Of a DNA stretch of 21,506 nucleotides, positions 2,754 through 11,494 are shown piece after piece (position 1 is the stretch's first letter; the number at the start of each line of letters is the position of its first letter). This DNA comes from a virus. The stretch spans positions 1 to 21,506 of IMG/VR virus record IMGVR_UViG_3300030333_004592. One strand, 5' to 3'. The notes beneath the pieces were generated by a model, which had not been told where the DNA came from, ran no database searches, and was given only the letters and a program-made list of their open reading frames with translations. Both the position numbers and the translations under genes were made by a program.

Positions 2754-3057
2754 GCGAATCACATCTTATTCACTAATTAAAATGTCACTTCTTAAAAATC
2801 TACCAGTCGCATTTTCTGAACGGCTCGGCCTTGATTACGTTCCAACATTAGATCAATTTAAGATCTATAAAAATTGGCTATTCTTTAAAAATGAGGAGTA
2901 CCCTGATGAAATTGAAATCTATCAATTACCGATGCCAGTTTGTTTAGAGTGTTATGACGAGTGTTCTTTTGAAGAGTCACCCTTTAAACCTGAAAATGAC
3001 AATATCGTTAATAAGCTTATTTCTAAATTAAATCACTCTTTAAACGAGGCTTATTGA
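2752..3057 (+). CDS. Unknown phage protein
   Basis: 101 residues from ATG 2752, or 91 from the in-frame ATG at 2782. The later start avoids the palindrome at 2739-2753 and may be the real one. Acidic C-terminal half with a cysteine cluster CLECYDEC (about 64-71), which could bind metal, but there is no recognised zinc-finger spacing. Function unknown. Confidence 0.55.
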   Translation: MRITSYSLIKMSLLKNLPVAFSERLGLDYVPTLDQFKIYKNWLFFKNEEYPDEIEIYQLPMPVCLECYDECSFEESPFKPENDNIVNKLISKLNHSLNEAY

Positions 3058-3058
3058 T

Positions 3059-3196
3059 ATGGGTTTCACAATAGTAGAAAAAGGAAACTGGCAACTAGCT
3101 ATAAACCCTGTAGACACTCTCAAAAAAGCAGAGAGAGAACTTAAAAAACTTAAAAAAGCACACCCTAAAAAAACTTATTGGATAGGAAAACTATGA
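3059..3196 (+). CDS. 45-residue basic protein
   Basis: Reads MGFTIVEKGNWQLAINP, then a Lys-rich helix with repeated KKL (residues about 22-34), ending YWIGKL. It begins 1 base after the preceding stop (TTGATATG arrangement) and ends 10 bases before the next gene, exactly filling the gap, which is the main evidence that it is real. The strongly basic helix suggests nucleic-acid or protein binding; nothing more can be said. Confidence 0.5.
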   Translation: MGFTIVEKGNWQLAINPVDTLKKAERELKKLKKAHPKKTYWIGKL

Positions 3197-3575: not shown

Positions 3576-3970
3576 TGAAAACATTTACCGAACAAGAGTA
3601 TCAAGAGCATGGAGAAATTCTTTTTAATATTGGAAAATCTGATGCTTTTAAATCTGTATTAAAAACCGAAGTAGTTTGGTCCGTAAGAATGCCTCAAAAA
3701 GATTGGAATTTAGACACTATTATTATTGGAGATGGAACATTGAAAAATATTTGTTTGGTAAAAACTGTTTTATCAGATGCAAAAGATTCAAAAGGTAATT
3801 TTATAAAAGAATATATATTCACTGAAGCTAAAGACGGAACTGTAAAAGAAGTTTGGTTGGCTGCTGATAGAGCCTATAAAAAAGCAGTGAAACTCTATGA
3901 CGATTGGCATTATTTCTTAGAAATAGTAGAACTAAGGAATAATAATATTTGTACTTTCTATGGTTCTTAA
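3572..3970 (+). CDS. Unknown phage protein
   Basis: 132 residues from ATG 3572 (a second ATG follows at 3575). Alternating strands and Lys/Asp-rich turns, with VWSVRMPQKDWNLDTIII near the middle. It is coupled to the previous gene by overlap. No recognised family, no membrane segment. Confidence 0.6.
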   Translation: MMKTFTEQEYQEHGEILFNIGKSDAFKSVLKTEVVWSVRMPQKDWNLDTIIIGDGTLKNICLVKTVLSDAKDSKGNFIKEYIFTEAKDGTVKEVWLAADRAYKKAVKLYDDWHYFLEIVELRNNNICTFYGS

Positions 3971-5000: not shown

Positions 5001-5036
5001 ATGAATGGCGATTTCAGCCTATGAATGGCCGATTTC
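5001..5036. repeat. Direct repeats in divergent control region
   Basis: ATGAATGGCGATTTC at 5001-5015 and ATGAATGGCCGATTTC at 5021-5036, a 20-base period with one base inserted in the second copy; a third partial ATGAATG lies at 5066-5072. They abut the -35 box at 5037, so they are well placed to be binding sites for a regulator of one or both divergent genes. Confidence 0.6.
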
Positions 5037-5065
5037 TTGACACCTCTATTATATGATATTATTGT
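5037..5065 (+). promoter_or_regulatory. Promoter, TTGACA-17-TATTGT
   Basis: Perfect -35 TTGACA (5037-5042), 17 bases, TATTGT (5060-5065); TATTAT also occurs 3 bases earlier. It drives the RAMP-like gene and probably the whole unit to the terminator at 7216-7246, including the hairpin array. Confidence 0.7.
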
Positions 5066-5071
5066 ATGAAT

Positions 5072-5106
5072 GTCCGTTAAGGACTTTATCTCTACACCGT
5101 TAAGGT
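5072..5106 (+). promoter_or_regulatory. Two CCGTTAAGG leader hairpins overlapping the RBS
   Basis: GTCC-GTTAA-GGAC (5072-5084) and ACC-GTTAA-GGT (5096-5106) share the 9-mer CCGTTAAGG, 23 bases apart, with different outer pairs that remain complementary. The second copy includes the AAGG that serves as ribosome binding site for ATG 5115. A protein bound here as RNA could shut off translation; as DNA it could be an operator just downstream of the promoter. Confidence 0.5.
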
Positions 5107-5114
5107 AACTAATT

Positions 5115-5756
5115 ATGGCTTTAAAAGGCTTTCAAGTAACAGTAGAAGGTACTTCACCTCTTCTCTGTTCAAATGTTGCTAGTTCCGATCCACTAGGAGA
5201 AGGTTCTAAGCAAAAAGCTTTCTTTCACAGTAAAAGAAAGAAAAATGATGAAGATCATAGAGCTTTAAGAACTCTTGATTGGATCTTTTCTGGTTATTGG
5301 GGATCTCAAGGTGAAATCTCTGTTGATGAAACTGAAAATACCGTTGATTTTGAAGGATTTTCTAAACCAACTCTCCCAGGAGCTAACTTCCAACGCTGCT
5401 TAAGAAATGCTGCTACAAAATGGAAATTAGGTAAAGACGTTCTTCGTTCAGTTGTCGTCTCTAACGATCCAGAGATTGAATACGATGGGCCAAAAGATGC
5501 CGTTGAAATGTTTAATTCAAGAACTCCTAAATTTCAAATGGCTGCTTTCACCTCAAGAGGTGTATGGGTTAATCGTTTAATGTTTCCTCTTTGGAAAGCT
5601 ACTTATCGTTTAACTGTTGATGATGAAATCCTTAGTGTTTCTCAGCTTAAACAGATAATTACAATGGCTGGTAAAGCCGAAGGTTTAGGTACTTGGAGAC
5701 CTAGACATGGAAGATTTACTGCTGGTGAATTGATGGAGGTTGGTTTCGATGCCTGA
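5115..5756 (+). CDS. RAMP/Cas7-like conserved phage protein
   Basis: 213 residues. It starts with a strand GFQVTVEGTSPLLCSN (about 5-20), as in a family of phage proteins beginning V-x-G-x-SPLL. In the middle is a helix GANFQRCLRNAATKW (89-103). The C-terminal glycine-rich loop GLGTWRPRHGRFTAGE (191-206) resembles the G-rich loop of RAMP (repeat-associated) RNA-binding folds such as Cas7. That fold assignment is my inference from pattern alone. It has its own strong promoter and paired leader hairpins, it is divergent from a RecB-like nuclease, and its operon runs into the hairpin array, so nucleic-acid binding is plausible. No catalytic site is evident. The stop overlaps the next start by 8 bases. 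Confidence 0.6.
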   Translation: MALKGFQVTVEGTSPLLCSNVASSDPLGEGSKQKAFFHSKRKKNDEDHRALRTLDWIFSGYWGSQGEISVDETENTVDFEGFSKPTLPGANFQRCLRNAATKWKLGKDVLRSVVVSNDPEIEYDGPKDAVEMFNSRTPKFQMAAFTSRGVWVNRLMFPLWKATYRLTVDDEILSVSQLKQIITMAGKAEGLGTWRPRHGRFTAGELMEVGFDA

Positions 5757-6252
5757 TCCAAATATTCATCCACTTGATATAAAAAACCTTGAAAAAGGTT
5801 CTTCTATCTCTAAAGAACAGATTCTTGAGTTCTGGAAATATCATTTTCCAGATAAAGAATGGAATGAATTTTCTTTGATGGAAATTAAGGAAAAAATTCA
5901 AAAAATAAGATCTGAATTAAACGCTCCAATTGTTATCAAACAGGTAAAAGTTGGTGGGGATTTCAGTTTCAAAATTCTTTTAGATGAAGAAGCTCCTGAC
6001 TATTTGGCAAGTCAAGCAACTGCTGGTATTAGAAAGCAGCGTAGAAATGCAAGACGATTGTTGACTGACATTGATGTTAACAATCTTGATGAAGCACAAA
6101 AACGTAGCTTGGAAACTAAACAGGTTCATCATGCGTTTATTGCTTCTGCTGCTGATGGAGCGAGAAAACACTCTCTTCAAATGCAAAGGAAAGGTCAGTC
6201 GTTACCTAAGTCTTTGATAAATAAATCAAAGCTTATTCCTCCTGACGCTTAA
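5749..6252 (+). CDS. Unknown basic phage protein, coupled to RAMP-like gene
   Basis: 167 residues from ATG 5749. This start has a GGAGG at 5735-5739 with 9-base spacing, one of the best ribosome sites in the window, and is preferred over the TTG at 5740. The N-terminal third is acidic/aromatic (EFWKYHFPDKEW). The C-terminal half is basic and helical (GIRKQRRNARRLL, then QMQRKGQSLPKSLINKSK), suggesting nucleic-acid binding. No family recognised. It overlaps the upstream gene by 8 bases and is directly followed by the hairpin array with no terminator between. Confidence 0.65.
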   Translation: MPDPNIHPLDIKNLEKGSSISKEQILEFWKYHFPDKEWNEFSLMEIKEKIQKIRSELNAPIVIKQVKVGGDFSFKILLDEEAPDYLASQATAGIRKQRRNARRLLTDIDVNNLDEAQKRSLETKQVHHAFIASAADGARKHSLQMQRKGQSLPKSLINKSKLIPPDA

Positions 6253-6345
6253 CAACGCTACTCGTTTCCGCTCGATTCCATTCCCTTCGATTCGCATCTC
6301 CTCTCGACTATTCATCTCCACTCGACTCGCCTCATCGCTCCGCTA
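6253..6345 (+). other. Pyrimidine-rich lead-in to the hairpin array
   Basis: 93 bases rich in C and T on the plus strand, with recurring words CGATTC and CGACTC. The same words recur in the linkers between hairpins (for example 6528-6535, 6618-6625, 6750-6757). GACTCGCCTCA occurs at 6323-6333 and again at 6549-6559. No gene seen. Confidence 0.5.
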
Positions 6346-6353
6346 TCGCTTCT

Positions 6354-6374
6354 CAATTCTACGATTAAGAATTG
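6354..6374 (+). repeat. Array hairpin 1 (CAATTC stem)
   Basis: CAATTC (6354-6359), loop TACGATTAA, GAATTG (6369-6374). The first and last loop bases can also pair. The second-hairpin arm is degenerate here (TTAATA facing TCTTAG at 6391-6396); TCGCT (6346-6350) pairs with AGCGA (6395-6399). Confidence 0.8.
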
Positions 6375-6465
6375 TACTTTTAATAATTTGTCTTAGCGAC
6401 TCTATTCACAACGCCTCATTTTGATGCTTCTCTGCTCCTAGCAACGCTCCTCCTCGCAATCGCTC

Positions 6466-6486
6466 ACGATCCACGAACAAGATCGT
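6466..6486 (+). repeat. Array hairpin 2 (ACGATC stem)
   Basis: ACGATC (6466-6471), variant loop CACGAACAA, GATCGT (6481-6486). It is followed by a perfect second hairpin CTAAGA (6492-6497), loop TTTTG, TCTTAG (6503-6508). Confidence 0.8.
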
Positions 6487-6567
6487 AACTCCTAAGATTT
6501 TGTCTTAGCTATGTTTTGCTCCGCTATTCGACTCTTTGCAAGTCCAACCGACTCGCCTCACTCGCTA

Positions 6568-6588
6568 CCGTTCCACGATTAAGAACGG
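6568..6588 (+). repeat. Array hairpin 3 (CCGTTC stem)
   Basis: CCGTTC (6568-6573), loop CACGATTAA, GAACGG (6583-6588). It is followed by a perfect second hairpin CTAAGA (6594-6599), loop ATTTG, TCTTAG (6605-6610). Confidence 0.8.
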
Positions 6589-6682
6589 ACCTTCTAAGAA
6601 TTTGTCTTAGCGGCTCTTTTCGACTCGGTGCTTTCCATCGTCTTCTCCGCTCGCTTCCCCTCAATTCACATCAATCGCTTCT

Positions 6683-6703
6683 CAATTCTACGATTAAGAA
6701 TTG
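6683..6703 (+). repeat. Array hairpin 4 (CAATTC stem)
   Basis: Same stem and loop as hairpin 1, extended by one T-A pair (6682/6704). The enclosing pairing AATCGCT (6673-6679) with AGCGATT (6724-6730) is a perfect 7 bp here. The second hairpin keeps only CTAA/TTAG. Confidence 0.8.
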
Positions 6704-6794
6704 AACCCCTAAATTTTTGTCTTAGCGATTCTGCCCATTTCCATTCTCCTCGACTCTTTCCGAATCCCTTCGGCTCTTCTCTCTGCTATCGCTA

Positions 6795-6815
6795 CCGTTC
6801 CACGATTAAGAACGG
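6795..6815 (+). repeat. Array hairpin 5 (CCGTTC stem)
   Basis: Same stem and loop as hairpin 3. Its downstream box is displaced: a variant, AATTTGCCTTAGC, is found only after the small gene, at 7086-7098. Confidence 0.75.
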
Positions 6816-6855
6816 AACTTCTCTTCCCTCCCGTAAAATTTTAAATCAAAATACT

Positions 6856-7074
6856 ATGTCCGATCACCCTTGGATTCCTCTAAGTATAAAGAAACCAACC
6901 GCTAAACATGCCAACAACGATGGTCAAGTTCTCTTCAGAATGAAAGGCTATTCAATGTCACTGCATTGGAATCATCCACCTGATGAAGCAACGTATTGGC
7001 AAATGATGGTTGACTCACCGCCAGATACCGTTCCTTGTTGGGAAGAGATAGTAAAAAGAGGAACACAGGAGTAA
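6856..7074 (+). CDS. Small protein encoded inside the array, DUF551-like
   Basis: 72 residues from ATG 6856; longer readings into the upstream array are rejected because that stretch is repeat sequence. HPWIPLSIKKP near the start, QVLFRMKG in the middle and ATYWQMMVDSPPD (about 46-58) resemble the W-I-(x)n-P ... V-L ... W-x-x-x-x-x-P layout of DUF551, a small phage family of unknown function. The match is loose. It sits between hairpin 5 and the displaced TTTGCCTTAGC box, so about 285 bases have been added inside one array unit. Base composition switches sharply from pyrimidine-rich to normal coding at the ATG. Confidence 0.65.
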   Translation: MSDHPWIPLSIKKPTAKHANNDGQVLFRMKGYSMSLHWNHPPDEATYWQMMVDSPPDTVPCWEEIVKRGTQE

Positions 7075-7191
7075 CAAACTTTAAAAATTTGCCTTAGCTC
7101 CGCAATTTTCCGCCACTCCCCTCATTTCAGCTCTGGTCTCTACAGCTCTGATCTGCTCAGTACGGCTCAATTTTCCGCACTGCTATCGCTC

Positions 7192-7212
7192 ACGATCCAC
7201 GATTAAGATCGC
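7192..7212 (+). repeat. Array hairpin 6 (CGATC stem)
   Basis: CGATC (7193-7197), loop CACGATTAA, GATCG (7207-7211); the outermost pair of hairpin 2 (A-T) is here an A/C mismatch. It runs straight into the terminator, which takes the place of the usual downstream box. Confidence 0.75.
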
Positions 7213-7215
7213 ATT

Positions 7216-7246
7216 AAAAAACCCCCTTTGATTAGGGGGCTTTTTA
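7216..7246. terminator. Bidirectional rho-independent terminator
   Basis: CCCCCT (7222-7227) / AGGGGG (7234-7239), loop TTGATT, with a run of A before and TTTTT after, so it works for both strands. It ends the array transcript (plus) and the SSB-like gene (minus, stop at 7262). Confidence 0.92.
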
Positions 7247-11100: not shown

Positions 11101-11310
11101 ATGAAGATTCTTGACTTTATTGGATCGTTTTTTGTTTATAAAAGCCCATTCCCCGAAGAGGGTTTTATCAATTTCCTTAAAAAAGTCCCAAATCGTCATT
11201 TAAAAGTCTTGGCAGGGACTAATTCCAACTACAGTAAAAAACGCCTTATACAGATGTACTTAGAGAAAAAAGCAAATGAGAACAAGAATTTCACACGTCC
11301 ATTGCCCTAA
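11101..11310 (+). CDS. Small unknown phage protein
   Basis: 69 residues, basic. The core PNRHLKVLAGTNSNYSKKRL (about 30-49) resembles a short helix-turn-helix-like segment (L-A-G-x-x-x-x-Y-S-K-x-x-L-I) that I associate with small cyanobacterial and cyanophage proteins; the link to DNA binding is inference. Its 3' end overlaps the next gene by 35 bases. Confidence 0.55.
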   Translation: MKILDFIGSFFVYKSPFPEEGFINFLKKVPNRHLKVLAGTNSNYSKKRLIQMYLEKKANENKNFTRPLP

Positions 11311-11494
11311 ATGCAAGATCTACTCAACACAAGAAGTTGTTACTTCCAGAAGAGATCTAGAAGGAAGAATTTTTAGAAGAAGACACTGTATTGAATGCGG
11401 TCATAGATGGTATACGCTCCAATATCCAGAAATATCCTTACAAGACTCTAACCCTTCAGAACTCTTTCCCAAAAAGAAGGAGAAGGTTGCTTAA
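11276..11494 (+). CDS. NrdR-like zinc-ribbon protein
   Basis: 72 residues. CPKC (10-13), VVTSRRDLEGRIFRRRHC (21-38) and CIECGHRW (38-45) reproduce the zinc ribbon at the N-terminus of NrdR, the repressor of ribonucleotide reductase genes: four cysteines, then S-R and R-R-R before the second pair. The ATP-cone that follows in NrdR is absent, so it is a stand-alone ribbon. It may bind promoter DNA as a phage or host-directed regulator. Last plus-strand early gene; its end overlaps a convergent gene by 47 bases. Confidence 0.65.
   Translation: MRTRISHVHCPKCKIYSTQEVVTSRRDLEGRIFRRRHCIECGHRWYTLQYPEISLQDSNPSELFPKKKEKVA

Follow-up and report, generated by a model that had tools for sequence, protein, structure and literature searches.

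An array of phage hairpins as the guide-RNA tails of a probable VIPR locus of variant type with a YKC triplet

VIPR is a virus-encoded relative of CRISPR that was described in 2026 in a preprint (PMC13142463). The published system comprises a phage RAMP protein, an accessory gene and guide RNAs termed vrRNAs; its minimal locus is vipr plus the accessory (vap) gene, of which types vap1-6 are distinguished (PMC13142463). VIPR has been proposed as the ancestor of the CRISPR RAMP effectors. In a published vrRNA, a tract of 9-16 pentamers (GGY/NN) leads into a structured 3' tail, the whole amounting to about 100 nucleotides (nt) in phage SUSP1, and the NN bases pair with double-stranded DNA, one target base being skipped between dinucleotides. 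The definition rests on a fixed triplet GGY "or a related consensus" (PMC13142463). Here we analyse viral DNA of 21,506 nt (IMG/VR record IMGVR_UViG_3300030333_004592, positions 1 to 21,506; hereafter the window), in which a preliminary description made from the letters alone had noted six hairpins whose loop stays constant and whose stem changes are compensating. These hairpins are the 3' tails of six VIPR guide RNAs. The locus around them, with vipr, an accessory gene and a six-vrRNA array, is very probably a phage-encoded VIPR, whose function as a ribonucleoprotein (RNP) would follow the SUSP1 model.

The identity of the hairpins follows from what stands before them: the apparent spacers are pentamer guide tracts phased to the hairpin, so each hairpin is a 3' tail. 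This periodic tract, like the two upstream genes of the same system, lay beyond the preliminary account. In 182 distinct units anchored at the hairpin (counts across loci are inflated by related sequences), the upstream sequence has a period of 5 nt. One position of the pentamer is C in about 70% of cases, the next two are near uniform, and these are followed mostly by C or T and then by T (about 60%) or G (about 25%). Read as NN-YKC, the six tracts of the window score 150 of 180, compared with 94 +/- 6 in shuffles (z = 9.4) and with 60-116 when slid by 1-4 nt, while for 174 tracts taken from other loci the in-phase score is 23.5/30, which sliding lowers to 10.9-16.4. The window thus has 5-nt repeats with a fixed triplet and a hypervariable NN, as in VIPR, with 10-12 repeats in units 2-5 and about 17 in units 1 and 6 (published, 9-16). 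The guide dinucleotides of vrRNA 6 recur nearly identically in two other loci (L005 and L006).

The tails follow the preliminary description closely, with some corrections. All six plus-strand hairpins were found in the proposed stem order (CAATTC, ACGATC, CCGTTC, CAATTC, CCGTTC, ACGATC), and TCGCT precedes each of them (6/6). The box said to follow every hairpin is present after units 1-4 (TTTGTCTTAGC), but after unit 5 it appears only beyond an open reading frame (ORF), as TTTGCCTTAGC, and unit 6 runs into the terminator. The perfect second hairpin CTAAGA/TCTTAG attributed to two units comes after the first hairpin in units 2 and 3, whereas units 1 and 4 are predicted to close by outer TCGCT/AGCGA pairing instead; other contigs carry other kinds of second hairpin. 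The unit length of 102-115 nt, which corresponds to one vrRNA and matches the SUSP1 size, holds for hairpin spacings of 112, 102, 115 and 112 but not for the last, 397, which holds an ORF of 72 amino acids (6856-7074) with no family match. ORFs likewise lie beside or within the array in loci L051 and L007, and arrays seem to take up small genes.

Selection for pairing in a folded RNA, suggested earlier from the compensating changes, is borne out by homologues. Beyond TCGCT and the loop, our search pattern constrained just the two innermost base pairs (TC/GA). It found 67 contigs in IMG/VR, where 97 of 99 matches (window included) pair at 3-7 positions further out; in 257 Gb of bacterial and archaeal genomes it found 40 contigs with only 0-2 further positions paired. 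This difference argues that the cellular matches are chance and that the viral hairpins are real. Homologous hairpins that keep their pairing exist in more than 60 uncultivated viral contigs. Across 31 distinct hairpins (a set that kept two non-pairing chance matches, L009 and L038), the tail covariation score was 0.50; shuffled sets gave 0.17 +/- 0.03, and none of 500 reached the observed value. Each of the six stem pairs left free to vary shows changes at both of its bases. A conserved structured 3' tail after the tract, as in published vrRNAs, is thus present. The earlier caution that pairs of identical stems may reflect duplication was reasonable, and the wider set shows many stem variants.

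When hairpins were collected by loop and stem alone, TCG stood just 5' of all 120 (115 TCGYT, 5 TCGTCC), and this TCG is complementary to the CGA of the loop. Given this complementarity and the same topology in SUSP1 tails, the tail probably closes as a pseudoknot, the box ATCG pairing with the loop CGAT. The corresponding pairs in SUSP1, read from its locus (L111), are GTGG/CCAC, GTAG/CTAC and AAGG/CCTT. Searches of Rfam gave no match, and blastn against phages gave nothing useful for the array and chance matches for the hairpin alone; no tRNA or tmRNA was found in the window. The preliminary description knew of no named family with this loop, a statement overtaken by the 2026 description of VIPR and its vrRNAs (PMC13142463).

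The genes next to the array point the same way. Contigs were oriented by the hairpin, and 32 of the 63 loci with tails could be judged (those with 2 kb or more of sequence before the first tail). Both genes precede the array on the same strand in 32/32 of these, so that each judgeable locus has vipr and an accessory gene. A profile of 27 Vipr homologues had a single match among solved structures in the PDB, 36pp, "SUSP1 Vipr protein" (E = 8.7e-22). The window protein is 28.5% identical to its phiSUSP1 counterpart over 98% of the query (tblastn), and hhalign gave a probability of 99.4% for SUSP1 Vipr. Its predicted structure (pLDDT 89) matches Csm3, Cas7, and type VII and type IV RAMP subunits, and it contains a glycine-rich loop, EGLGTWRPRxGRF; as expected for VIPR, it is a small RAMP homologue with a G-loop. 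The vipr product is assigned to phrog_4652 (function unknown) and the accessory product to no family; Pfam has no match for either. The accessory protein is basic and helical, and a fold search gave a weak winged-helix resemblance without significant matches.

Table 1. Features of the putative VIPR locus, in window coordinates
Feature	Position	Strand	Basis
Candidate sigma-70-like promoter TTGACA-17-TATTGT, 5' of vipr	5037..5065	+	Consensus match only; such sites in the region no commoner than in shuffles
vipr, RAMP-family protein, 213 amino acids	5115..5756	+	Profile match, identity to phiSUSP1, predicted fold
Accessory gene (vap-like), 167 amino acids, overlapping the end of vipr	5749..6252	+	Adjoins vipr in every judgeable locus (32/32)
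vrRNA 1 guide tract, about 17 NN-YKC pentamers (5' limit uncertain)	6262..6345	+	Pentamer phase
vrRNA 1 tail: TCGCT box, hairpin 6354-6374 (CAATTC/GAATTG, loop TACGATTAA), TTTGTCTTAGC at 6387-6397, outer TCGCT/AGCGA pairing predicted	6346..6397	+	
vrRNA 2 guide tract, about 12 pentamers	6398..6459	+	Pentamer phase
vrRNA 2 tail: hairpin 6466-6486 (ACGATC/GATCGT, loop CACGAACAA), second hairpin CTAAGA 6492-6497 / TCTTAG 6503-6508	6460..6509	+	
vrRNA 3 guide tract, about 10 pentamers	6510..6561	+	Pentamer phase
vrRNA 3 tail: hairpin 6568-6588 (CCGTTC/GAACGG), second hairpin CTAAGA 6594-6599 / TCTTAG 6605-6610	6562..6611	+	
vrRNA 4 guide tract, about 12 pentamers including one 6-nt unit (atCGTC)	6612..6674	+	Read by comparison with L051
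vrRNA 4 tail: hairpin 6683-6703 (CAATTC/GAATTG), box 6716-6726, outer TCGCT/AGCGA pairing predicted	6675..6726	+	
vrRNA 5 guide tract, about 12 pentamers	6727..6788	+	Pentamer phase
vrRNA 5 tail: hairpin 6795-6815 (CCGTTC/GAACGG), without second hairpin, then small ORF	6789..6815	+	
TTTGCCTTAGC box (7088-7098) and vrRNA 6 guide tract, about 17 pentamers	7088..7185	+	Pentamer phase
vrRNA 6 tail: hairpin 7193-7211 (CGATC/GATCG, loop CACGATTAA)	7186..7212	+	
Intrinsic terminator closing the array	7222..7245	+	

SUSP1 is an Escherichia phage with a type II VIPR (PMC13142463; KT454805), and it shares with the window a vipr gene, a small accessory gene and an array of units of about 100 nt that begin with a pentamer tract bearing hypervariable NN and end in a structured 3' tail. 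In both, the base before NN is a pyrimidine. However, its fixed triplet, read by eye from L111, is GGY, compared with YKC in the clade of the window. The tail sequence also differs, the window clade has several kinds of second hairpin, the two Vipr proteins are only about 28% identical, the accessory protein of the window has no detectable homology to that of SUSP1, and the window shows no vrRNA unit 5' of its vipr gene. A variant tail (TCGTCCGCCGGT-[AC]ACGAYTAA-ACCGGC) occurs in L048 (near 2764), L031 (near 8084), L014, L016 and L049; its position in L048 and L031, immediately 5' of vipr, recalls that of the upstream vrRNA of SUSP1.

Among cultured phages, the closest Vipr homologues are those of the Gordonia phages MakoManhole and Trine and of Mycobacterium phage LittleE (30-36% identity). 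MakoManhole and LittleE resemble the window in having pentamer arrays downstream of two genes, but their triplets are of the GGY type (by eye) and their tails are tRNA-like. In MakoManhole (L112, about 2970-3145) and LittleE (L114, about 3700-3920), the units that follow the GGY tract resemble tRNA 3' halves, in which an acceptor-like CTCGG...CCGAG stem closes a T-arm-like GGGGTTCGACTCCCC or GTTCGATTCGCC. The vrRNA tails of these actinophages may derive from tRNAs.

Because the definition of VIPR admits a "related consensus" besides GGY, the YKC triplet makes the locus a variant of VIPR rather than excluding it. The change of code is the main novelty, although the related consensus of the preprint may already list YKC. 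By analogy with SUSP1 (PMC13142463), the array is probably transcribed from the same strand as vipr and the accessory gene, ending at the terminator, and each expressed vrRNA would comprise a 5' guide tract of about 10-17 NN-YKC pentamers and a 3' hairpin tail. Several copies of Vipr would coat the tract, gripping the YKC triplets and leaving the NN dinucleotides exposed, presumably to pair with double-stranded DNA under the rule of one skipped target base; binding of the RNP may then silence host genes or those of competing mobile elements. If true, the YKC/NN clade would indicate that the fixed triplet can change while pentamer geometry, tail architecture and RAMP scaffold stay, and would separate the essential features of VIPR from the lineage-specific ones. 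It would also add more than 100 natural guides with which the pairing rule could be tested, and a second code for structure determination.

Targets were sought with the pairing rule of SUSP1. One conserved guide, C1, is found in nine loci (e.g. L061, L041, L025, L026, L040, L064) in a unit upstream of the last tail, and has the dinucleotides TT AG CG GC CG CT CC AT CC CC. With its eight central dinucleotides as seed and a 1-nt skip, C1 had 88 matches in IMG/VR, of which 64 also fit both outer dinucleotides (20/20 guide bases). Of these 64, 45 lie in called tRNA-Leu(CAA) genes, two in called tRNA-Leu(UAA) genes and 17 in uncalled sequence that is the same or closely similar; all perfect viral matches within called genes are thus in tRNA-Leu. 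Fifteen of the 64 are no more than 200 nt from the end of a contig, and several are exactly 50 nt from it, a placement that proviruses inserted at an attachment site in this tRNA gene would be expected to give. The tRNA-Leu(CAA) gene is a common kind of integration site. A perfect C1 match occurs in 23 of 399 genomes from a single phylum, and the reversed pattern in none; by its letters, without tRNA calling, this is the same tRNA-Leu stretch.

Seeds of 16 bases have tens of chance matches each. A perfect four-base extension would arise by chance for roughly a few per cent of guides, an after-the-fact estimate and not a formal probability; the fall of the perfect matches in one conserved gene makes chance less likely. 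Comparison of C1 with the fetched tRNA set would be circular, the set having been retrieved with C1, and was used only for a shuffled background, in which the best of 2,180 shuffles reached 17/20. The C1 match suggests a new target class for VIPR, and tRNA-Leu is at present the one candidate class, with none yet for the guides of the window. We regard as evenly balanced the wider proposal that an uncultivated, probably marine, phage group has a distinct YKC/NN type of VIPR, that the fixed triplet is thus not universal and co-evolved with Vipr, and that at least one widely kept guide targets the gene for tRNA-Leu(CAA), the system then acting as an attachment-site guard or tRNA-gene silencer. 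A marine origin, guessed in the preliminary description, fits the relatives of the window phage.

Several results weigh against a functional VIPR of this kind. The literal GGY motif is absent, the fixed triplet here being Y-K-C. The accessory protein is not detectably related to the vap1 of SUSP1, the only vap compared (hhalign E = 0.1). Preferential conservation of NN relative to YKC in related guides has weak statistical support (p = 0.33 with a uniform expectation, 0.027 when diversity-weighted) in an underpowered comparison. In IMG/VR, no target was found at 16-18 guide bases for the guides of window units 1, 2, 5 and 6, whose extensions were at background, or for a second conserved guide, which also gave only background, so that one of the six guides searched has a perfect 20/20 target under 1-nt-skip pairing. 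Within about 0.9 Mb of fetched loci, targets showed no excess at skips of 0, 1 or 2, and a skip of 3 found just identical or shared guides in arrays.

The lack of targets for the window guides would suit a VIPR-derived locus that now works in cis, with Vipr binding the tails in its own 3' untranslated region and thereby regulating or protecting the operon mRNA, the tracts being mere spacers; the position of the array, directly 3' of both genes on the same strand and ended by a terminator, would suit it as well. However, a spacer would need neither the strict 5-nt phase nor the hypervariable NN that are seen over 174 units elsewhere, and guide C1 matches tRNA-Leu genes perfectly. We therefore consider a role in cis improbable. 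A CRISPR array, or an anti-CRISPR RNA that mimics CRISPR repeats, is less probable still. A RAMP-family protein does adjoin a regularly spaced hairpin array, and the predicted fold and glycine-rich loop of the window Vipr are like those of Class 1 CRISPR RAMPs (Csm3, Cas7, Csf2, type VII Cas7). In contrast to CRISPR-Cas, with its identical repeats, contiguous spacers and adjoining cas genes, the stems here differ, a pentamer code takes the place of a free spacer as the variable part, and neither of the genes beside the array, vipr and the accessory gene, is a recognised cas gene. There is also no match to these RAMPs at the sequence level: Vipr, and no Cas protein, is the one relative that sequence comparison with solved structures gave.

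Of the roles raised in the preliminary description, a folded multi-copy phage small RNA stands, and binding by a phage RNA-binding protein, most likely Vipr, is the role to which the linked genes point. Its third suggestion, initiation signals for a primase-polymerase, does not agree with the linkage to vipr. A gene resembling a PriCT_2/AAA primase-helicase lies about 850 nt downstream of the array, as folded initiation or assembly signals for that enzyme or for replication would predict, but the judgeable loci tie the array to vipr and the accessory gene in every case, and the tract periodicity and the match to VIPR anatomy would be left unexplained. Such signals are the least probable of the alternatives, being scarcely credible here. 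A mobile hairpin or REP-like element was also considered, as the hairpin abuts different genes, and was ruled out by the same fixed linkage.

Two further observations concern the window itself. Near-repeats ATGAATGGCGATTTC, ATGAATGGCCGATTTC and ATGAATGTCCG (5001-5076) flank the TTGACA site just 5' of vipr and are possibly operator sites. Downstream, positions 11276-11494 encode a phage protein of 72 amino acids whose zinc-ribbon domain is NrdR-like (Pfam PF22811, E 2.2e-8).
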